64,000 nt of DNA from an uncultured Opitutia bacterium (GTDB lineage Bacteria > Verrucomicrobiota > Verrucomicrobiia > Opitutales > Opitutaceae). The DNA is taken from the NCBI GenBank assembly GCA_903825285.1, contig CAIJZY010000046.1, positions 1-64,000 of the forward strand, given 5' to 3'. A program made the translations under genes and the position numbers. The notes under the pieces are model-generated. The model did not search any database, was not told the origin of the DNA, and saw only the letters and a list, made by a program, of their open reading frames with translations. This document shows, in pieces, positions 24,947-34,621 of the stretch. The stretch's first letter is position 1. Each line of letters opens with the position of its first letter.

Positions 24947-25087
24947 ATCTTATCTTTAGCTAGTTATGAGCATAATGTGTTATTTGCATAGCTTATAGCA
25001 AAAGATGCGTAGCCGGATTTTTTCATTAGGCAGATAGTGGGGCCACGGATCGACCGCCAATTTCCGGCGTTCGCCCCGCACCCTGCC

Positions 25088-26533
25088 ATGTCAAAACCCA
25101 GAACCCTCCCCTCCTCCTTCGTGATTATTGCCGCGACGATTCTTGGTGTCGTCGCGCCCGCAACGTTGCATGCGACCAACGGCATGAACATGGAAGGGTA
25201 CGGCCCCGTCGCCACCGCGATGGGTGGCGCCTCCTTCGCCTATGACAACGGCACCGCCGGGTTGATCAACAATCCGGCAACGCTCGGGCTCATGACCGAG
25301 AACGCCCGACTCGATCTCGCCCTCGGCATCCTCGGACCGCACATCGATGTTACCAGTCCGTCCACGACACCGAATATCTTCGGCGTGCCGGCGAACCAGA
25401 AGGCCAGTTCCACCGCCAACGCATTCTTTATGCCGGCGGTGGGCTATGTGCGGCGCAGCGGCAATTTCGTTTATGGACTCGGCATGTTCGGCCAAGGGGG
25501 CATGGGTTGTGAATACGACGCCGACTCCTGGCGTGGTCTGGGCTTTGGCCTCAAGAACCGCACGGAAGTTTCCGTGGGGCGAGTGATCGTGCCGCTGGTC
25601 TATCAAGTGAACGACACCCTGCAGATCGGGGCGACGGCCGATTTTATGTGGGCGGGCATGGACCTGAAGATGGCCATGAGCGGCAACCAGTTTTTCGACC
25701 TCGTGATGCCCACCAGCCAGCGTTTTGGGCGCGCCTCTGGCGCCATCGTCCAGAGTTTCGGGCAGATTCTGGCCACCATGCCAGCCGGCACCTCGGTAGA
25801 CTATGCCTATTTCAATTTTTCCAACAGCAATCTGTTCACCGGCGAGGCCCGCAGCTACGGTTACGGCGGAAAAATCGGTCTCGTCTATACGCCGTCGAAA
25901 GACCTCAGCTTCGGTCTCACCTATCACACCCAGTCCGTGTTGTCCGACATGACGGCAAAGGGTGATACGCTCAGCTTCCAACTCAACGTCCCCGGCATGG
26001 GCCATATTCCGCAGTCGCTGACGGGCGACTTCCGCGTCCACAATTTTCAATGGCCCGCGATGCTCGGCGCCGGCCTCGCCTGGTATCCGGCTCCGCGCTG
26101 GATGATCGCCGCGGATGTGCGGGAGATCTTTTGGAAAAACGTGATGAAGGAATTTAACATGAGTTTCGTGGCCTCGGCCGCCGCGAGCAATGGCCCCTTT
26201 GCCGGCCAAGACCTCAACGCCGTTTTGTTCCAGTCCTGGAGCGACCAAACCGTGGTTCAACTCGGCGCAGCCTACCAAGCCACCGACAAACTCACGCTGC
26301 GCTTCGGCGGCAACTTCGGCAACAACCCGGTCCCGGACACCTACCTCAACTGTCTCTTCCCGGCCATCGTGAAGGACCACCTCACCGCCGGCTTCGGCTG
26401 GAAGTTCGATGCCCGGTCTTCCTTCGACGCGTCCTTCACCTATGGGTTCAAGGTCAACACGGTCAATGGCTCGGGCGCCAGCGTCAGCCACAGCCAGACG
26501 AACGTTCAGCTCATGTATAGCTACCACTTCTAG
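25088..26533 (+). CDS. FadL/TodX-family outer-membrane transporter
   Basis: Beta-barrel porin of the OmpP1/FadL family (481 residues from ATG 25088), which passes hydrophobic molecules through the outer membrane. The signal peptide ends at LHA, and the mature start TNGMNMEGYGPVATAMGGAS is the conserved N-terminal plug segment. INNPATLGLM and the closing LMYSYHF with C-terminal Phe are also typical. Sitting first in the sulfur operon, it might admit elemental sulfur or hydrophobic polysulfides. That role is inference from position. Confidence 0.9.
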   Translation: MSKPRTLPSSFVIIAATILGVVAPATLHATNGMNMEGYGPVATAMGGASFAYDNGTAGLINNPATLGLMTENARLDLALGILGPHIDVTSPSTTPNIFGVPANQKASSTANAFFMPAVGYVRRSGNFVYGLGMFGQGGMGCEYDADSWRGLGFGLKNRTEVSVGRVIVPLVYQVNDTLQIGATADFMWAGMDLKMAMSGNQFFDLVMPTSQRFGRASGAIVQSFGQILATMPAGTSVDYAYFNFSNSNLFTGEARSYGYGGKIGLVYTPSKDLSFGLTYHTQSVLSDMTAKGDTLSFQLNVPGMGHIPQSLTGDFRVHNFQWPAMLGAGLAWYPAPRWMIAADVREIFWKNVMKEFNMSFVASAAASNGPFAGQDLNAVLFQSWSDQTVVQLGAAYQATDKLTLRFGGNFGNNPVPDTYLNCLFPAIVKDHLTAGFGWKFDARSSFDASFTYGFKVNTVNGSGASVSHSQTNVQLMYSYHF

Positions 26534-26561
26534 ACGGCACCGTTAGTTCGTGTTCATCGTT

Positions 26562-28757
26562 ATGAATTCTCTCTCGCGCCGCCGTTTCCTGAAAATAGCC
26601 ACCACCACGATTTTGGCGGCAGGAGTAGCCGGTCGGGCCACACGCGCCTTGGCCGCCGCCGCGGCGGCGAACGGTGGCCCCTCTGGCACCCGCCGGGTGC
26701 CGACTTATTGCGACATCTGCTTCTGGAAGTGCGGGGCGATTGCCAGCGTGCGCAACGGAGAACTTTGGAAAATCGAGGGGAACCCCTCCGACCCGCTTTG
26801 CCGGGGCCGCCTCTGCCCTCGCGGCACGGGTGGGATCGGCGCCCACACCGACCCCGACCGCCTCCGGGCCCCACTGATTCGCACCAACCAGCGGGGTGAG
26901 GAGAAATGGGAGGAGGTCACGTGGGACGAGGCGCTGGAATACATCGCCACGCGCATGAAGAAAATCGCCTCGGACCATGGGCCTGAGTCGATGGCCCTGT
27001 TTGCGCATGGGGTTGGCGGGACTTTCCTCAAGCACACGCTCAAGGCCTACGGGGTGAACAATATCGCCGCGCCTTCGTTCGCGCAGTGCCGTGGTCCGCG
27101 TGACGTGGGATTTCGGCTGACCTTCGGGGACGACGTGGGTTCACCGGAGCGCACGGATATCGAGAATGCCGGCTGCCTCGTTCTCATCGGATCGCACCTC
27201 GGCGAGAACATGCACAACACGCAGGTGCAGGAATTCGCCACGGCGGTGGGTCGCGGGGCGAGCCTAATTGTCGTTGATCCGCGCTTCTCCGTCGCCGCCA
27301 GCAAGGCAAAATTCTTCCTGCCGATCAAACCCGGCACCGACCTGGCGCTGCTGCTGGCCTGGATGCACGTCCTCGTTGCCGAGAAACTCTACGATGCCGA
27401 CTACGTGGCGAAATACGGCTTTGGTTTCGAGCAATTTGCCGCTTCGTTGACCAGTTATACTCCGGAGTGGGCCTTTGTTGAAACCGGCATCGAGCCCGGG
27501 GTTATTCGCGCCACGGCCCGAGAAATGGCTCGTTACCATCCGGCTACACTGGTCCATCCCGGCCGCCACGTAAACTGGTATGGTGACGATGCTCAGCGCA
27601 GTCGCGCCGTCGCCCTGCTCAACGCCCTGCTTGGCAGCTGGGGTCGTAAGGGGGGCTTTTATCAGCCCTCGAGCATGGACATACCGGCCTACCCGTATCC
27701 GCACTATCCGAAGGCAAGCCGGCCCACGGTAGACAATCCCGGACGCAAATTCCCGTTCGCGCACGAGGCCATATCCACCGGCATCCGCGACGCCACCCTC
27801 ACGGGCCAGCCCTATCCCATCAAAGGCTGGATGGTTTATGCGACCAACCTGCTCAATGCGCTGCCAAACCAGGCTGAAACCATCCGCGCCATCCAGCAAC
27901 TCGACCTCCTGGTGGTCGTCGATGTCATTCCCAGTGAAATCGCGGGCTGGGCTGACGTCGTGCTGCCCGAGTCCATCTATCTTGAGCGCTTCGATGAGCT
28001 GAACCCCGAGTATTTCAAGGAACCCTTCCTCGCCTTGCGCCAGCCGGTCGTCGAATCGCCGAATGACCAGAAACCCAATTGGTGGATTGCGCGGAGTCTG
28101 GCGCAAAAGCTCGGCCTGGGAGCTTATTACCCGTGGAAGGACATCGAGGAATATTTGGAGTATCGCGTCACGGCGGCCGGCTTGAGTTACCCGGAGCTGA
28201 AACAAAAGGGGATTCTCCACGGCCCGCGACAGCCGCTCTATTTTGACGAAGGCGCCCCCGCGGAATTCGACACCCCGTCGAAGAAAATCGAGTTCTATTC
28301 ACTCCAGCTGGAAAAGGCCGGGTTTGATCCGGTGCCGCGCTACACGCCGCCCCCACCTGGTCCCGCCGGCTCCTTCCGCCTGCTCTTCGGGCGGGCCCCG
28401 ATGCACTCGTTCAGCCGCACCCAGAGCAATCGGCTCCTGTCCGATTTGATGAGCGAGAACGTCGTCTGGATCAATCACACCGCCGCTTCCCGCCTCGGCC
28501 TCAAGACCGATGACTACGTCCGGCTGCGCAACCAGGACGGCGTGGTGAGCAACCGCATCAAGGTGAAGGCCACGGAACGGATCCGGCCCGAATGCGTTTA
28601 TCTGGTCCACGGCTTCGGACATACCTCGCGGGGCCTGCGCCATGCCTTCGGCAAGGGCGCCAGCGACAGCCAGCTCATCACGCGTTATCGGACCGATCCG
28701 CTCATGGGGGGCACGGGCATGAACATCAACTTCGTCACGGTCGAACCGGAGGCCTGA
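26562..28757 (+). CDS. psrA: Molybdopterin oxidoreductase, polysulfide/thiosulfate reductase catalytic subunit
   Basis: Catalytic subunit of the PsrA/PhsA type within the DMSO reductase superfamily. From ATG 26562 it is 731 residues. A twin-arginine signal (SRRRFLK) exports the folded protein. A [4Fe-4S] site follows: Cys50, Cys53, Cys57 and Cys85. The segment APSFAQCRGPRD carries Cys176, the probable molybdenum ligand, as in polysulfide and thiosulfate reductases rather than Asp/Ser relatives. The C-terminal molybdopterin-binding domain includes VWINHTAASRLGL and GFGHTSRGLRHAFG. Fe-S and membrane subunits follow at 3 and 13 bases. Tetrathionate or arsenate reductase is less likely but not excluded. 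Confidence 0.88.
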   Translation: MNSLSRRRFLKIATTTILAAGVAGRATRALAAAAAANGGPSGTRRVPTYCDICFWKCGAIASVRNGELWKIEGNPSDPLCRGRLCPRGTGGIGAHTDPDRLRAPLIRTNQRGEEKWEEVTWDEALEYIATRMKKIASDHGPESMALFAHGVGGTFLKHTLKAYGVNNIAAPSFAQCRGPRDVGFRLTFGDDVGSPERTDIENAGCLVLIGSHLGENMHNTQVQEFATAVGRGASLIVVDPRFSVAASKAKFFLPIKPGTDLALLLAWMHVLVAEKLYDADYVAKYGFGFEQFAASLTSYTPEWAFVETGIEPGVIRATAREMARYHPATLVHPGRHVNWYGDDAQRSRAVALLNALLGSWGRKGGFYQPSSMDIPAYPYPHYPKASRPTVDNPGRKFPFAHEAISTGIRDATLTGQPYPIKGWMVYATNLLNALPNQAETIRAIQQLDLLVVVDVIPSEIAGWADVVLPESIYLERFDELNPEYFKEPFLALRQPVVESPNDQKPNWWIARSLAQKLGLGAYYPWKDIEEYLEYRVTAAGLSYPELKQKGILHGPRQPLYFDEGAPAEFDTPSKKIEFYSLQLEKAGFDPVPRYTPPPPGPAGSFRLLFGRAPMHSFSRTQSNRLLSDLMSENVVWINHTAASRLGLKTDDYVRLRNQDGVVSNRIKVKATERIRPECVYLVHGFGHTSRGLRHAFGKGASDSQLITRYRTDPLMGGTGMNINFVTVEPEA

Positions 28758-28760
28758 ACC

Positions 28761-29300
28761 ATGGCGCGCTACATTATGGTCATCGACACCCGGCGCTGCG
28801 TCGGCTGCATGGATTGCGTGGTGGCGTGCAAGACGGAGAACAACATCCCGGAAGGCTATACCCGTGATTGGATCACTGAGACGGTGTGCGGCGAGTTCCC
28901 GACAGTCGGGCTGGAGATCCGCACCGAGCGCTGCAACCAGTGCGCAAATCCACCATGCGTTTCCTGCTGTCCGACCGGCGCCAGCCATGTCCACGAGCGT
29001 GGTGGAGTAGTGCTGGTCAACAAGGACGAGTGCATCGGGTGCAAGGCCTGCCTGGCGGCTTGCCCCTATGACGCCCGTTTCATCCATCCCGACGGCTATG
29101 CCGACAAGTGCACCTTCTGCATTCATCGCGTGGAAAAAGGCCTGGACCCGGCTTGTGTCTCAGTCTGCCCCACCCATTGCATGCATTTTGGTGATGCGGA
29201 CGATCCGTTGAGCGAAGTGAGCCGGCTGCTGACCTCCCGCCCGCAACACACGCTCCTGCCCGAGGCCGGGACCAAGCCGCGCATTTACTACCTCACGTGA
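28761..29300 (+). CDS. psrB: Four-cluster ferredoxin subunit, PsrB type
   Basis: Electron-transfer subunit of the reductase (179 residues). Four cysteine groups for [4Fe-4S] clusters are seen: CVGCMDCVVAC, CNQCANPPCVSCCP, CIGCKACLAACP, and CTFCIHRVEKG with CVSVCP. It passes electrons from the membrane subunit to the Mo subunit. It has no signal of its own, consistent with hitchhiker export on the Tat-bearing partner. Confidence 0.92.
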   Translation: MARYIMVIDTRRCVGCMDCVVACKTENNIPEGYTRDWITETVCGEFPTVGLEIRTERCNQCANPPCVSCCPTGASHVHERGGVVLVNKDECIGCKACLAACPYDARFIHPDGYADKCTFCIHRVEKGLDPACVSVCPTHCMHFGDADDPLSEVSRLLTSRPQHTLLPEAGTKPRIYYLT

Positions 29301-29313
29301 ACCCCTCACGCCC

Positions 29314-30357
29314 ATGACCGAGTTCACCCTTTATCGCCACAACCCATTGCTGGACCCCGCGGTGCATGTCTGGGGCTGGGAAATACCGGTCTATCTTTTC
29401 CTCGGCGGCCTCGTTGCCGGCCTGATGATCATCGCCGGCGTCCGCCTCCTCATCATGCGCCCAACGGCCCGGCAGGCCCTCGTCTGCTGCACGGTTGGAC
29501 CCCTGATCGGCCTCGTGTTGCTCAGCGCGGGCATGTTCGCGCTGTTTCTGGACCTCAGCCATAAATTCTACGTTTGGCGCCTCTACCTCGCCTTTGAACC
29601 GACTTCGCCCATGTCGTGGGGCGCGTGGATTCTGCTATTCGTTTACCCGGCACTGCTGGCCAACGCCTTGACCCATCTGCCTGAGGCCATCCCCGCGCTG
29701 GCCAAGCGCGTTCCCGTGTTGGTGACCATCAGTGACTACATCCTGGCCCGGCCGCGCATCGTCGTGGGCATTGGCCTGGCCAACATGGCCATCGGCGTCG
29801 CCCTGGGCATCTACACGGGGGTGCTCCTCGGCGCGATGGGCGCCCGGCCGCTCTGGAACAGCGCGGTGCTCGGCCCGCTGTTTCTGTTTTCCGGGTTGTC
29901 CACAGCGGCGGCCTTGTTGCACGGGATCCTGGTTCTCACGACGCCGGATGACGAGCGCCCGCAATTTGCCGACTTCCTGCTTTCGATGGTGGCGCGCTGG
30001 TCCCAAGCGCGCCCGCTCGACACCCGCATCGCGCCCACGCTGGCCCAGGCCGACAACAGCTTTCTGACGATTGAACTCGGGTTGCTCGGTTTCCTGCTGA
30101 TCGGTCATCTGACCTCGACCGCAGTCCATCAACAGGCCGCCGGGCTCCTGCTGACCGGACCTTACGCCGCCGTGTTCTGGGTGTTCGTCGTTGGCCTGGG
30201 CATTCTCGTCCCCTTGGTCATCCAGCACCTCGAACTGTTGCACCGCATCCGGCACACCATCGCACCGTCCCTCCTCGTGCTCAGCGGCGGCCTGGTGCTG
30301 CGCTTCGTGCTGGTGGCCGCCGGCCAGGCCAGCCACTGGGCCACCGCGTTGCCCTGA
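29314..30357 (+). CDS. psrC: NrfD/PsrC-family membrane subunit
   Basis: Quinol-oxidising membrane anchor of the complex (347 residues), with about eight to nine hydrophobic helices. It begins EFTLYRHNPLLDPAVHVWGW and continues IPVYLFLGGLVAGLMII, which is typical of NrfD proteins (a W-G-W-x-I-P-x-Y-L-F element). It starts 13 bases after psrB. Together with the two preceding genes it forms a complete menaquinol:polysulfide (or thiosulfate) reductase. Confidence 0.92.
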   Translation: MTEFTLYRHNPLLDPAVHVWGWEIPVYLFLGGLVAGLMIIAGVRLLIMRPTARQALVCCTVGPLIGLVLLSAGMFALFLDLSHKFYVWRLYLAFEPTSPMSWGAWILLFVYPALLANALTHLPEAIPALAKRVPVLVTISDYILARPRIVVGIGLANMAIGVALGIYTGVLLGAMGARPLWNSAVLGPLFLFSGLSTAAALLHGILVLTTPDDERPQFADFLLSMVARWSQARPLDTRIAPTLAQADNSFLTIELGLLGFLLIGHLTSTAVHQQAAGLLLTGPYAAVFWVFVVGLGILVPLVIQHLELLHRIRHTIAPSLLVLSGGLVLRFVLVAAGQASHWATALP

Positions 30358-30378: not shown

Positions 30379-30918
30379 ATGTCATCCTCCACCGAAATTT
30401 CCCCCGCGGAGCAGCCGCACATGAATCCCTATTGGGCCGGCTTCGGCCTCGGACTCGTGCTTCTGGCCTCCTTCGTCATCATGGGCCGTGGCCTGGGCGC
30501 CTCCGGCGCCTTCACCACCGCCGTGGCCACCACCGTCCACGCCATCGCACCCGCCCACGCCGAGGGCAACGCCTTTTACGCCGAGTATCTGGGTGACGGC
30601 GCCACCAGCCCGCTCAAGGACTGGCTCGTCTTCGAGGTGCTGGGGGTGTTTCTCGGCGGCTTTCTCTCCGGGGCTTTGGCCAACCGGCTCAAGTTCACGA
30701 TCGAAAAGGGGCCGCGCATCACCAACCCGCGTCGCCTTTTGCTCGCCGCGATCGGGGGGGCCCTCATGGGCATCGGCGCCAAGCTCGCGTTGGGCTGCAC
30801 CAGTGGCCAGGCCTTGACCGGAGGGGCGCTGCTCAACCTGGGCAGCTGGGCCTTCATGATGTGCGTGTTTGGCGGGGCCTATGGCCTCGCCTGGTTCCTG
30901 CGGAGGGCCTGGCTATGA
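30379..30918 (+). CDS. YeeE/YedE-family transporter, half 1
   Basis: A 179-residue membrane protein of the YeeE/YedE (TsuA-like) family, characterised members of which take up thiosulfate. It contains the family cysteine motif LALGCTSGQALTGGALL, equivalent to the substrate-relaying cysteines. Short N-terminal residues precede about four helices. It overlaps the next gene by four bases (ATGA), so the two halves are made together and probably pair into one transporter. Confidence 0.87.
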   Translation: MSSSTEISPAEQPHMNPYWAGFGLGLVLLASFVIMGRGLGASGAFTTAVATTVHAIAPAHAEGNAFYAEYLGDGATSPLKDWLVFEVLGVFLGGFLSGALANRLKFTIEKGPRITNPRRLLLAAIGGALMGIGAKLALGCTSGQALTGGALLNLGSWAFMMCVFGGAYGLAWFLRRAWL

Positions 30919-32186
30919 ACGCACCTTTCTTCAAGTATGCCTTGTTCGGCGATGAAATGTCGCTCGTCGTGGCGTTTGTCATCGGCATCGGTTTCGGCTT
31001 CTTCCTCGAGCGCGCCGGCTTCGGCAACGCCCGGTTGCTCGCGGCCCAGTTCTACTTCCGCGACCTGCGCGTGTTGAAGGTCATGTTCACCGCCATCATC
31101 ACCGCCATGGTGGGCGCGTATCTGCTGGGGCGGTTGGGCTTGCTCGACCTTTCGCTCGTCTACCTGACCCCGACGTTCCTGGTGCCGCAGATTGCCGGGG
31201 GCTTGATCCTCGGAGCGGGCTTCATCATCGGAGGCTACTGTCCGGGGACCTCGTGCGTCTCGGCAGCCACGGGGCGCATCGACGGCATGGTCTACCTCGC
31301 CGGCATGATCGGCGGCCTCCTGGGCTTCGCCGAGGTCTATCCCTCGATCGAGCGCTTCACCAAGATCACCGCGATGGGCCAGATCACGCTCGCCCGGCAA
31401 TTCCACCTCTCCTATGGCTTCCTGGTTTTTGCGGTCGTGCTGATGGCCTTCGGCGCCTTTGTCATGGCCGAGCTGGCCGAGAAGTTTATCGGGGGCAAGG
31501 AACCCGGCCCGGGCGCCTTGCTGGAACCGGTGCGCACCTTCACCCCAGTCCGCCGCTTCGCCGTCGTGCTGACCGGCCTGGGCGTCGTCGCGCTCTTTGC
31601 CGGGAGCCCGTACCGCAGCGCTCTCGCCCAGGTCGACACCAAGCAACTCGCGCTCGACGCGCTCCGGGCCGCGGATCAAGTGACCGCCGACCAGTTGGCC
31701 GACTGGCTTGTCGAGGGGCGCAACGATTACCTGCTCGTTGATGTCCGCGATGCGCAGTCATTCGCCGCCTATCACATCCCCGGGGCCGTCAACCTTCCGC
31801 TGTCCGGCCTGAACCATGATTTCGCGCAGCGCAACGAACGGGTCGTGTTCTACAGCGACAACGCCATTCACACGGCCCAGGCTTGGTTCCTGATCCGCTC
31901 CCTTGGGTTTCCCTCGGTCTACATCCTCGCCGGGGGATTGGAAACGTGGCAGGAAGCGGTGTTGTATCCCCGGGCTCCTGCAGCCGGCGCAGCGCCCAAG
32001 GACCAGATCGACTTCGCCAAACGAATGGCGGTGGCCAAATTCTTTGGCGGCTCTGCCCGCGGCGCGACCAGTGAAGTTGCAAACCCGGTCGCCCCCGTCC
32101 TGCCGAAATTGGCGCCGCCAAGCCCGACGGCTCCCGCCCCCGACAACGCCCAGCCCGCCAAGAAAAAAAAGAAGGAGGGCTGCTGA
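30915..32186 (+). CDS. YeeE/YedE half 2 fused to a cysteine-less rhodanese domain with a Gly-Cys tail
   Basis: A 423-residue fusion. Residues 1-215 are a YeeE/YedE membrane domain with the motif GGYCPGTSCVSAATG and about six helices. After a linker and one more helix (near 215-235), residues 250-355 are a rhodanese-like domain (DYLLVDVRDAQSFAAYHIPG). Its active-site loop reads FYSDNAIHTAQ, with Ser314 where the sulfur-carrying cysteine should be. The last 60 residues are a Pro/Ala linker, a lysine run and a final Gly-Cys. I infer that the terminal Cys423 may carry sulfur on a flexible arm. Confidence 0.85.
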   Translation: MNAPFFKYALFGDEMSLVVAFVIGIGFGFFLERAGFGNARLLAAQFYFRDLRVLKVMFTAIITAMVGAYLLGRLGLLDLSLVYLTPTFLVPQIAGGLILGAGFIIGGYCPGTSCVSAATGRIDGMVYLAGMIGGLLGFAEVYPSIERFTKITAMGQITLARQFHLSYGFLVFAVVLMAFGAFVMAELAEKFIGGKEPGPGALLEPVRTFTPVRRFAVVLTGLGVVALFAGSPYRSALAQVDTKQLALDALRAADQVTADQLADWLVEGRNDYLLVDVRDAQSFAAYHIPGAVNLPLSGLNHDFAQRNERVVFYSDNAIHTAQAWFLIRSLGFPSVYILAGGLETWQEAVLYPRAPAAGAAPKDQIDFAKRMAVAKFFGGSARGATSEVANPVAPVLPKLAPPSPTAPAPDNAQPAKKKKKEGC

Positions 32187-32698
32187 TGCCTGCGAACGCC
32201 GAGACTCTGTGCGCACCCGCGGCCACCGCCGTGATTCACGGACTGTTCATATCACCCGGCCACAATTTCTTCGGCCGCCATGGCCAAGAGCCCGGGCAGC
32301 ATCCCACGCAGGCCGTCGACGCCCTCGAGTGTATCGCCGGCCGCGGGATAAAGGGCGACCGTTTCTTTGACTACGAACCGAACTATAAAGGGCAGATATC
32401 CTTCTTCTCGGCGGAAGTCTTTGATGCGCTGCGCCATGAACTCGGGCTATCGAACGCCCTTCCCGAACAAGCCAGGCGCAATGTCCTGGTTTCTGGGGTT
32501 GATCTCAATGAGCTCATCGGCGTCGAGTTCACCCTTCAAGGCATTCGTTTTCTCGGGACGGAGCAATGCCGGCCCTGCTACTGGATGGACCTCGCGGTTG
32601 GCCCCGGAGCAAATGTTTGGATGCGAGGGCGAGGCGGGCTGCGCGCCCGCATCCTGTCCGACGGCATCCTCCGTTGTTCAGGCCAGTCGAACTCCTAA
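32186..32698 (+). CDS. MOSC-domain protein
   Basis: A 170-residue MOSC (molybdenum cofactor sulfurase C-terminal) domain: GRGIKGDRFFDYEPNYKGQI and GTEQCRPCYWMDLAVGPG with Cys-Arg-Pro-Cys, followed by RGRGGLRARILSDG. MOSC proteins deliver sulfur to metal centres or bind Moco. It begins within the stop of the preceding gene, and maturation of the Mo reductase encoded upstream is a reasonable role. Confidence 0.85.
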   Translation: MPANAETLCAPAATAVIHGLFISPGHNFFGRHGQEPGQHPTQAVDALECIAGRGIKGDRFFDYEPNYKGQISFFSAEVFDALRHELGLSNALPEQARRNVLVSGVDLNELIGVEFTLQGIRFLGTEQCRPCYWMDLAVGPGANVWMRGRGGLRARILSDGILRCSGQSNS

Positions 32699-32710: not shown

Positions 32711-34621
32711 TTGGATCCGCCGCCCCACCGGTTATCTGCCGTGTGGGCGGAACTATATATCTGGATCGGCCTAATGCTGACGACCGTGGTCGCGGCCGTG
32801 GCCCTGCCCCTGTATCTTCGATCCGCGCAAACCCGTTCCTCGGGTTCGAGTCAACCCGAAGGCTGCCTGGATTGCCACGCTGGGATGATTGGCTTCGCGG
32901 CCGGACATGAACCGAGAGCCATAGGCTGTGCAGTGTGCCATATGGGCAACCGCAGCGCCCATACGGCCGAGGCTGCCCACGCCGGCATGACCCGCACTCC
33001 CGGCAATCTTTCGATTGTGCCCCAAACCTGCGCCTCCGCGGCATGTCATGAAGCCATTGGCGAACGTGTGCGCGGCTCGCCCATGAACACGATGAGCGGC
33101 GTGGTTGCGGTCGATAAATATGTGTTCGGTGAAAACCCCGACCTCGACCGGCCATTCGCCGTCTCTCAACTCGGCCACTCTCCTGCTGATTCACATCTGC
33201 GCACACTATGTGCCTCCTGCCATCTCGGCAACGACAAGGCCGCACCGGCCCCCATTGATGAAACATCGCGGGGCGGCGGTTGCTCGGCCTGCCACCTCGA
33301 CTACGGCTCAGGTGCTCGCGAAGAACTTGCCCGACGAGACCGGCCCGGTCTGACCCCTTTATCGCCCAGGGCCCACCCTCTAATCTCCGTTCGGATTCCC
33401 GACGAGGCGTGCTTCGGCTGCCACAGCCGTTCGGGTCGGATTGCAACCAACTACGAAGGCTGGCACGAAACTCCGCTCGATGAAGCACCTGCGCCGCAGA
33501 CCCCGGGGGCGAAGAACCAGTACCGTGTTTTGGCCGATGGTCGTGTTTTTGAACGAATGCCCGCCGATGTTCACTTCACCAAAGGGCTTTCCTGCACCGA
33601 CTGTCATTTGGCGTCCGAGGTGATGGGTGACGGACAGTTCCATCCACACGAGGAACAAGCGGTTGGCATTTCCTGCCAAGACTGCCATTCGGACCAGTCG
33701 CCCAAGACACGACCTTTTGCTGGGCTCGATCCGGAGACCCAGATGCTCGTTGCCCTGCGCGGACTGGCGGCACCAGACCGGCGCTATGTGGTCATTAGTT
33801 CAGGCCGGACGACTTTTCCCAATGTCTTCGTTGATGCCGCGGGGGTCACGCAGCTCATTCCTCAAAACACGGGCGTGGCGTTGCAGCCCAAGCCGCTCAC
33901 CGCTGCTTGCGGCCGCAACTCCGCCAGCCATGGTTCAATTGAGTGCCGGAGCTGCCACAGTGCTTGGGTATCGCAATGCACCTCCTGCCACACCCAATCC
34001 GAGCCTCATGTCCCGGGCTGGGACCACTTGGACGGGCGGATTGCCTCTGACTCGTGGCGCGAAAGCTCCGGAGGTTTCTTTGCTGATCCACCGACTCTCG
34101 GTGTGGTCGGAACCAGTAGCGGAGCGAATCACACGCGTGTGACAACGGTTGCGCCCGGCATGGTCCTCACTCTGAATCAAGCCGCGGCATCTGCCGGTCA
34201 GCCCGATGAGTTTCATCGCCTCTTCGCTCCAGCATCGCCTCACACCACTGGTCGCCGCGCCCGTGACTGCCGGTCATGTCATTCAAGCCCATCCGCGCTC
34301 GGGTATGGCCGAGGTGTGCTGAGCTACAAAGTGTCTGGCGCGACCGGGCGTTGGGGCTTCACCCCCGAGCAACCCACTCTGCGGAGTGACGGGCTTCCCG
34401 CCGACGCATGGATTGGGTTCCTGCAGTCCCGCAAAGGACATGTCTCTACCCGATATGACGTTCGACCGTTCACACTCGAAGAGCAGCAGCGCATCTTGCG
34501 GGTAGGCGCCTGTCTGACCTGTCACGCCGGCAATTCAGCATTGATGCAACAGGCTATGGACGATTTCTCCAAGGTCCTGACGCGCTGCAGTCCCAGATGT
34601 GCGCTTCCGCAGTGGCATTGA
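32711..34621 (+). CDS. Membrane-anchored multihaem cytochrome c (12 predicted haem sites)
   Basis: A 636-residue protein with one N-terminal membrane helix (LYIWIGLMLTTVVAAVALPL) and a large periplasmic part. I count eleven CxxCH motifs (CLDCH, CAVCH, CASCH, CSACH, CFGCH, CTDCH, CQDCH, CRSCH twice, CTSCH, CLTCH) and one CASAACH (Cx4CH). The spacing recalls octahaem and larger tetrathionate/nitrite-reductase-like cytochromes, but I recognise no exact family. It starts at TTG with a strong ribosome-binding site 12 bases after the MOSC gene. It may link quinol to an S-O compound, or carry electrons to or from the Mo reductase. Confidence 0.85.
   Translation: MDPPPHRLSAVWAELYIWIGLMLTTVVAAVALPLYLRSAQTRSSGSSQPEGCLDCHAGMIGFAAGHEPRAIGCAVCHMGNRSAHTAEAAHAGMTRTPGNLSIVPQTCASAACHEAIGERVRGSPMNTMSGVVAVDKYVFGENPDLDRPFAVSQLGHSPADSHLRTLCASCHLGNDKAAPAPIDETSRGGGCSACHLDYGSGAREELARRDRPGLTPLSPRAHPLISVRIPDEACFGCHSRSGRIATNYEGWHETPLDEAPAPQTPGAKNQYRVLADGRVFERMPADVHFTKGLSCTDCHLASEVMGDGQFHPHEEQAVGISCQDCHSDQSPKTRPFAGLDPETQMLVALRGLAAPDRRYVVISSGRTTFPNVFVDAAGVTQLIPQNTGVALQPKPLTAACGRNSASHGSIECRSCHSAWVSQCTSCHTQSEPHVPGWDHLDGRIASDSWRESSGGFFADPPTLGVVGTSSGANHTRVTTVAPGMVLTLNQAAASAGQPDEFHRLFAPASPHTTGRRARDCRSCHSSPSALGYGRGVLSYKVSGATGRWGFTPEQPTLRSDGLPADAWIGFLQSRKGHVSTRYDVRPFTLEEQQRILRVGACLTCHAGNSALMQQAMDDFSKVLTRCSPRCALPQWH

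Follow-up and report, generated by a model that had tools for sequence, protein, structure and literature searches.

In Cupriavidus, a pair of half-size YeeE proteins acts as a one-way importer of zero-valent sulfur, and each half contains an essential Cys (PMC10812762, in the part of the article consulted). The N-terminal half of YeeE has its counterpart in PmpB and the C-terminal half in PmpA; the excerpted text of the describing article characterizes both as four-helix proteins that are about 130 residues long and contain a single conserved Cys (PMC11582611). In the same excerpt, sulfane sulfur is said to reach YeeE-type pores 'by unknown means', a transfer from the SoxY Cys to the pore cysteines of SoxT is termed conceivable, and doubt is expressed about sulfur hopping between pore cysteines that are about 7 angstroms apart (PMC11582611). 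The Cys of the C-terminal GGCGG motif of SoxY is, according to the accessible portion of a further article, an established periplasmic sulfur carrier (PMC6067878). For Psr-type enzymes, the use of polysulfide versus thiosulfate cannot be inferred from sequence alone, as the consulted section of another report points out (PMC13047784). A Cys arm that is built into the pore protein and retained in six phyla allows the route of sulfane sulfur between periplasmic enzymes and YeeE-type pores to be tested directly by mutation. A literature search covering the titles and abstract starts of open-licence PMC articles returned no description of a terminal-Cys arm or a fused YeeE-rhodanese arm.

The window (the whole stretch of DNA analysed, 64,000 nucleotides) encodes a candidate arm of this kind at the C-terminus of a protein designated P0001. 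All eight window proteins compared matched a named contig at 99.8-100%, which identifies the host as an Opitutae MAG. The features of the locus are as follows:

26550-28757, + strand: PsrA-type molybdopterin subunit (best PDB sequence match 2vpw_A, E 1.1e-207)
28761-29300, + strand: PsrB-type 4Fe-4S subunit (PF13247; same order in relatives)
29314-30357, + strand: PsrC/NrfD-type membrane subunit (PF03916, E 5.8e-35)
30379-30918, + strand: PmpA-like partner, C-terminal half of YeeE, with Cys140 (PF04143, profile positions 176-309)
30915-32186, + strand: P0001, PmpB-like half transporter, anchor, Cys-less rhodanese, linker and KKKKKEGC
30915-31610, + strand: Sulf_transp/PmpB-like membrane half of P0001 (PF04143), conserved pore Cys109 (codon 31239-31241)
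31548-31604, + strand: last hydrophobic segment of P0001, residues 212-230, RR at the N-terminal edge (hydropathy scan)
31686-31958, + strand: rhodanese domain of P0001, residues 258-348 (PF00581, E 1e-18)
31854-31856, + strand: Ser314 codon (AGC), catalytic Cys position
32052-32159, + strand: Pro/Ala-rich linker, sequence and length variable among relatives
32160-32183, + strand: C-terminal KKKKKEGC, Cys423 codon 32181-32183 (terminal Cys invariant in 48 rows)
32186-32698, + strand: MOSC-domain protein, start overlapping the P0001 stop (TGATG) (PF03473, E 3.6e-07)

P0001 comprises 423 residues from its ATG and ends in PAKKKKKEGC (translation of 30915-32186, + strand). The program-made open reading frame begins further upstream at GTG 30861, but ATG 30915 was taken as the start because relatives begin alike (MNAPFFKY and close variants). 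Pfam assigned residues 34-232 to Sulf_transp (PF04143, E 1.8e-15), and the probably exported part matched Rhodanese (PF00581, E 1e-18) above the curated cut-off, which identifies the fold. The rhodanese loop reads VVFYSDNAIHTAQAW with Ser at position 314, so that P0001 lacks the catalytic Cys by which an active rhodanese is recognized. Its only cysteines are 109, 114, and 423. Cys109, the pore Cys, was invariant in 18 aligned rows and, together with the Sulf_transp domain, marks the N-terminal part as a half transporter. The first-pass annotation had described a transporter fused to an apparently dead rhodanese with a lysine run and a final Gly-Cys; translation, Pfam, Ser314, and KKKKKEGC agree with it, and Ser314 in place of the persulfide Cys, the Pro/Ala linker, the lysines, and Cys423 are all present in the translation. 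Its transporter is indeed of the YeeE type, but had to be narrowed to half a YeeE, PmpB-like and accompanied by the PmpA-like neighbour at 30379-30918.

Judged by sequence, the three genes upstream of pmpA are assigned to the PsrABC type: the Mo subunit is near a solved Psr, and the B and C subunits are encoded alongside. The PsrC-type subunit gave no match at E 0.001 in a PDB sequence search. PsrA carries, by reading, the Tat-signal-like motif SRRRFLK. A segment matching the last hydrophobic segment of P0001 is N-terminal in six relatives in which transporter half and rhodanese are split, with one to three Lys/Arg among the first ten residues. From the RR at the segment edge of P0001 and the charge pattern of the split forms, rhodanese and arm are placed outside the cytoplasm, on the same side as PsrA; hydropathy and charge thus make an extracytoplasmic position of both probable.

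Several further genes of the window were noted. A FadL/OmpP1-type outer-membrane protein, possibly a sulfur uptake porin, is encoded directly upstream of psrA (25037-26533), and homologues of it also border this operon in loci of several Opitutaceae and of the Ignavibacteriae/Bacteroidetes side. The MOSC ORF (32186-32698) contains a CRPC motif; its product is a possible cytoplasmic sulfur acceptor, and a homologue was found near the tail locus in 3 of 13 loci examined (L079, L080, L081). A multihaem cytochrome (32711-34621) resembles ExtM, which is associated with selenite/tellurite reduction, at 228 bits, under the curated cut-off of 800; ExtM-like cytochromes recur near psrA-tail loci in several phyla.

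The first set of homologues consisted of 14 fused proteins (the window's own, Opitutaceae, one Bryobacterales, and one deltaproteobacterial MAG) and six split ones (Ignavibacteriae, Bacteroidetes, and one unplaced), and all 20 end in [KR]EGC. In the split forms, the transporter half stops and the rhodanese follows in a second ORF that brings an N-terminal hydrophobic segment of its own. A larger set was obtained by a profile search of 257 genomes and from the loci found earlier. Before alignment, L111 (broken reading frame), rows scoring under 60, and rows running off their locus were left out; from the 62 aligned rows, 13 sister-type rows and L160 were set aside, which left 48 rows, the window included. 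The many weaker matches of the early homologue searches are outside all counts given here. The tail rhodanese gene of L111/L166 is broken across two reading frames, by a frameshift or a sequencing error.

An alignment of the C-termini, as the first-pass annotation had proposed, kept the last Cys in 48 of 48 rows. The loop residue is Ser in 36 rows, Gly in seven, Ala in three, and Cys in two, so that the catalytic Cys is absent in 46 of the 48; homologues with the rhodanese Cys and without the terminal Cys, which would have spoken for a lone mutation, do not occur among these rows. Only five columns are invariant: D37, R39, G102, W106, and, corresponding to the terminal Cys, C184; the 47 relatives share 22-64% identity with the window segment. 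The tail residues drift while the Cys stays (KKKEGC, KPKREGC, KKAAGGC, LVRMGC, LRFQC, LRRRGC). In 39 of the 48 rows it is the sole Cys of rhodanese and tail segment. The linker following the FGG motif varies from 26 to 64 residues among relatives.

Twelve further members, with loop Ser in eight, Thr in three, and Gly in one, were obtained from 247 and 195 genomes of two more phyla; in four of them the Cys is second-last (AGGCG, SGSCG, GGGCG, GVGCS). From this set, L185 and L195 were dropped as duplicates, L190 and L196 as sister-type proteins without a tail, and L202 because it runs off its locus. Together with L163, tail members total 61, and the Cys is last or second-last in all 13 beyond the 48. 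Carriers with names belong to six phyla: Verrucomicrobiota, Acidobacteriota, Ignavibacteriota, Bacteroidota, Myxococcota, and Gemmatimonadota. A plasmid search added one useful relative, from Gemmatirosa. The live-Cys rhodaneses recovered by the same searches served as an unplanned control and lack the terminal Cys throughout (22 of 22 and 14 of 14 complete rows, and L160). The last 17 of the 47 matches of one phylum search comprised 14 complete live-Cys rows, one tail member (L242, ending in GAREGC, loop Thr), one sister-type protein without a tail (L241), and one match running off its contig (L244).

The terminal-Cys arm with loss of the loop Cys hence recurs across relatives and is no lone mutation; an assembly error was likewise rejected, since the tail is present in independent genomes. 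A strict either/or of loop Cys and terminal Cys was also rejected, because L144 and L148 have both. The tree places both within a supported group of tail rows, and their loop Cys was therefore read as a regain. In this tree, which offers few columns and many open forks, the tail label needs three changes, of which the starred branches force two; the grouping of L163 with MBL (metallo-beta-lactamase) domains is flagged as a long-branch join. Since the tail proteins are mostly one kinship group, their counts are not independent.

The tail was additionally searched for at the DNA level as KKKx[AEGD]GC-stop, with the reversed pattern as a control. The pattern was composed after the tail was known and is blind to the protein, not to the motif. 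It matched 22 times versus five times for the reversed pattern in 387 Verrucomicrobiota genomes, and 28 versus three times in 296 genomes of the phylum of L062. ORFs longer than 62 residues account for 27 of these 50 matches, and each of the 27 is the tail of a rhodanese-domain protein, several having been found earlier: 10 MBL-rhodanese proteins, 13 split rhodaneses, three PmpB-rhodanese fusions of the window type, and one more distant fusion (L122/L163, KKKSGGC). The remaining 23 comprise L087, the broken-off-looking tails L111, L116, and L123, and other short ORFs. L087, a secreted-looking, Cys-rich ORF of 62 residues ending in KKKGEGC, is the longest match outside rhodaneses. DNA chance as the origin of the tail was rejected by the reversed-pattern controls and the rhodanese context. 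A genome-wide host feature was rejected as well, the host genome containing a single KKEGC-stop match, P0001 itself. Two of 710 ORFs of 300 or more residues end in Cys, a count that excludes ORFs ending in AGC by design, includes non-coding frames, and is given no weight here.

Besides P0001 and its split counterparts, a second protein type, composed of an MBL fold and rhodaneses, ends in such a tail (KKKSAGC), again after a Cys-less rhodanese. L072, the only family-tested member, has a metallo-beta-lactamase domain and three rhodaneses, and L240 ends in KKRNAGC; L072, L074, and L240 start with signal-like segments (by reading). In all six MBL proteins read fully, the last rhodanese, beside the arm, is Cys-less (VDRDGSLA in five, IDRDGTVA in L074). 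The PmpB neighbour of the MBL proteins usually has three rhodaneses and no arm; its first rhodanese is Cys-less, and its last has an intact CRTGHQAS-type loop. This layout was found in 12 of 13 sister rows and in L190. A Cys-less rhodanese without a tail occurs in 16 sister-type rows (13 of the 62-row set, L190 and L196, and L241). In 13 of these 16 chains a live rhodanese follows. The other three, L043, L196, and L241, have neither tail nor live rhodanese, and the generalization that every exported chain ends in one reactive Cys was rejected. The adjoining MBL protein bears the tail in two cases, L074 (in a wider stretch of L043) and L240 (in a wider stretch of L196). Wherever it was read, in fused, split, and MBL proteins alike, the arm follows a Cys-less rhodanese, with the exceptions L144 and L148, which have the loop Cys too.

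The gene order psrA-psrB-psrC-pmpA-pmpB/rhodanese is kept in all 11 named loci with enough flank and in most others. Partners were counted for the 52 distinct tail ORFs preceded by 5.5 kb or more of sequence, restricted to proteins with Cys in the last two residues and not including L242; within the fetched stretch, PsrA was matched in 44 and PmpA in 51 of them. All 40 EGC-ending tails, including divergent ones without the Lys run (L174, L232, L233), are accompanied by PsrA, compared with four of the 12 tails without this ending (L172, L173, L177, L226). Neither partner is obligatory: PsrA went unmatched in eight of the 52 loci, and PmpA in one (L226). The PsrA-less loci L170, L182, L175, L168, and partly L162 (all by Pfam), and L181 (by reading), have a rhodanese-domain sulfurtransferase upstream; L163 has a PF11783 cytochrome and a cytochrome b561, and similar-looking genes were read in L229 and L231. 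L226 combines a tail rhodanese ending in KLGVGCS with PsrA, PsrB, and a match to a sulfurtransferase, and has a cytochrome b-like gene (by reading) at the expected place of PsrC. The arm-bearing rhodanese and a sulfur or redox enzyme close by are the constant elements of the tail loci, and the pore is nearly constant. In the window, the PsrABC-type reductase encoded just upstream of pmpA and P0001, which the first-pass annotation leaves unmentioned, is the main partner of P0001.

We consider it fairly probable that P0001 is a tethered persulfide arm that moves sulfane sulfur between a periplasmic sulfur enzyme and a PmpAB pore. The N-terminal half of P0001 and the PmpA-like protein (30379-30918) would form a split YeeE-type sulfur pore. 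The periplasmic remainder would provide a Cys-less rhodanese-fold platform, followed by about 40 flexible residues, which could reach across many tens of angstroms, the basic run, and the terminal Cys. Polysulfide or thiosulfate located at, or made by, the neighbouring enzyme, here PsrABC, would load this Cys with sulfane sulfur in persulfide form, and the loaded Cys would swing back and pass the sulfur to the PmpAB pore cysteines. By analogy with SoxY, the arm would act as a sulfur carrier tethered in cis; the Lys run, together with the EGC ending, probably adjusts how reactive the Cys is and how it docks to PsrA. The architecture, the invariant terminal Cys, the lost loop Cys, the gene partners, and the return of the tail on a second protein type were observed and speak for this explanation, as do the live-Cys rhodaneses without a terminal Cys and the varied codons of the tail. 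We infer the periplasmic side, the persulfide chemistry, the direction of flow, and the role of the dead domain. The first-pass annotation had let the transporter hand sulfur to the arm; its idea of a terminal-Cys arm is supported, but the direction has been revised. Its proposal that the rhodanese fold would only bind is one possible role of the dead domain, and L144 and L148 have a loop Cys besides the terminal one. An arm that feeds the pore is more likely than one that receives from it, because the half-YeeE pair imports and does not export zero-valent sulfur, as far as the consulted part of the article describes it (PMC10812762). Points against the persulfide arm are the loci lacking a PsrA or PmpA match, the loop Cys of L144 and L148, the 16 sister-type rows in which a Cys-less rhodanese has no tail, the kinship of the tail proteins, L172 and L173, which have PsrA yet no EGC ending, and the doubt about sulfur hopping over about 7 angstroms (PMC11582611).

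A further-reaching version, possible but in our view doubtful, is that of a relocated active site. The rhodanese catalytic Cys would have left the loop for the end of a long flexible tail, where one Cys would serve in turn the empty rhodanese cradle, the Mo site of the reductase, and the PmpAB pore mouth. The tail, a basic run and x-Gly-Cys, would be an exchangeable 'sulfur arm' module found on at least two kinds of periplasmic protein, and its residues ahead of the Cys would fit the respective partner enzyme.

Psr reduces polysulfide to sulfide and requires no import for this, so that the arm might serve PsrA instead. It would then work in reverse, collecting polysulfide sulfur for the Mo site of PsrA in the way the free rhodanese Sud delivers polysulfide sulfur to Wolinella Psr, and the PmpAB half would be only an anchor or an importer of by-products. 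The PsrA matches in 44 of 52 tail loci and with every EGC-ending tail are in line with this reading, as is L226, where PsrA, PsrB, and the tail rhodanese occur without a PmpA match. PmpA is nevertheless matched in 51 of 52 loci, and the eight loci without PsrA retain both the arm and PmpA; in most of those read, rhodanese-type sulfurtransferases or multihaem-like cytochromes lie alongside instead. Delivery to PsrA is, on this evidence, unlikely.

That the terminal Cys is a thiol-redox or disulfide group handling electrons and not sulfur, be it as a dimer link, a redox switch, or a reductant of a pore disulfide, is improbable. The single Cys in the rhodanese and tail segment of 39 of 48 rows speaks for it. 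Against it, most rows lack another thiol there, sulfur handling or electron transfer is the role of most neighbours that were family-tested, and the loss of the rhodanese Cys is left unexplained.

The occurrence of alike tails on two different exported protein types would also be expected of an attachment or sorting signal, in which the basic tail addresses a lipid, a glycan, or membrane phosphate and the Cys is the site of modification. P0001 and the split forms already possess a membrane segment, however, each of the 27 long-ORF pattern matches follows a rhodanese domain, and endings such as LVRMGC and LRFQC retain little besides the Cys. We regard such a signal as very improbable.

In the window, the last codons AAGAAGGAGGGCTGC, followed by TGATG, double as the ribosome-binding site of the MOSC ORF at 32186. 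Among the 36 EGC-ending members (window included), the Cys codons are divided between TGC (18) and TGT (18), all four Gly codons and both Glu codons are used, and an ATG lies within about 20 nt of the stop in nine members and in none of the other 27. Because of this synonymous variation, the overlap does not explain the tail, and the reading as a by-product of the ribosome-binding site of the MOSC gene, to which AAGAAGGAGG and the TGATG overlap had given rise, was rejected as having next to no probability, the codons varying freely and 27 of 36 members having no ATG near the stop.

If the tethered persulfide arm is real, it represents a new use of the rhodanese fold, which would serve as a Cys-less platform while a tail bears the reactive Cys; the C-terminal signature of the arm would be recognizable in the annotation of sulfur-relay proteins.

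Among the known systems, SoxY of the SoxYZ protein shares with P0001 the carriage of periplasmic sulfur, a role that for P0001 is proposed by comparison, on a C-terminal Cys with Gly beside it, and three relatives of the phylum of L064 have SoxY-like endings (AGGCG, SGSCG, GGGCG). P0001 itself has KKKKKEGC in place of a GGCGG ending, and unlike SoxY, its exported domain matches the rhodanese fold in Pfam, is tethered to half a pore, and has the Cys as the last residue after a Lys-rich EGC ending. PmpAB and YedE1E2 share the PmpB-like half with the conserved Cys109 and the PmpA-like neighbour; P0001 differs by the additional rhodanese and arm, of which the excerpted text makes no mention (PMC11582611). 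The combination of PsrABC with Sud is comparable to the window, as PsrA matches the Thermus Psr 2vpw_A, deposited as a thiosulfate reductase, and a rhodanese-fold protein is co-encoded. Sud uses a loop Cys; in P0001 this Cys is lost (Ser314), and the candidate reactive Cys is on the arm. DsrC and TusE have a flexible C-terminal arm with a conserved Cys, which is the feature they share with P0001, but differ from it in their fold, their cytoplasmic location, and the absence of a transporter. The arm of P0001 resembles those of swinging-arm sulfur carriers, and the protein is a member of neither the SoxY, the Sud, nor the active-rhodanese group.
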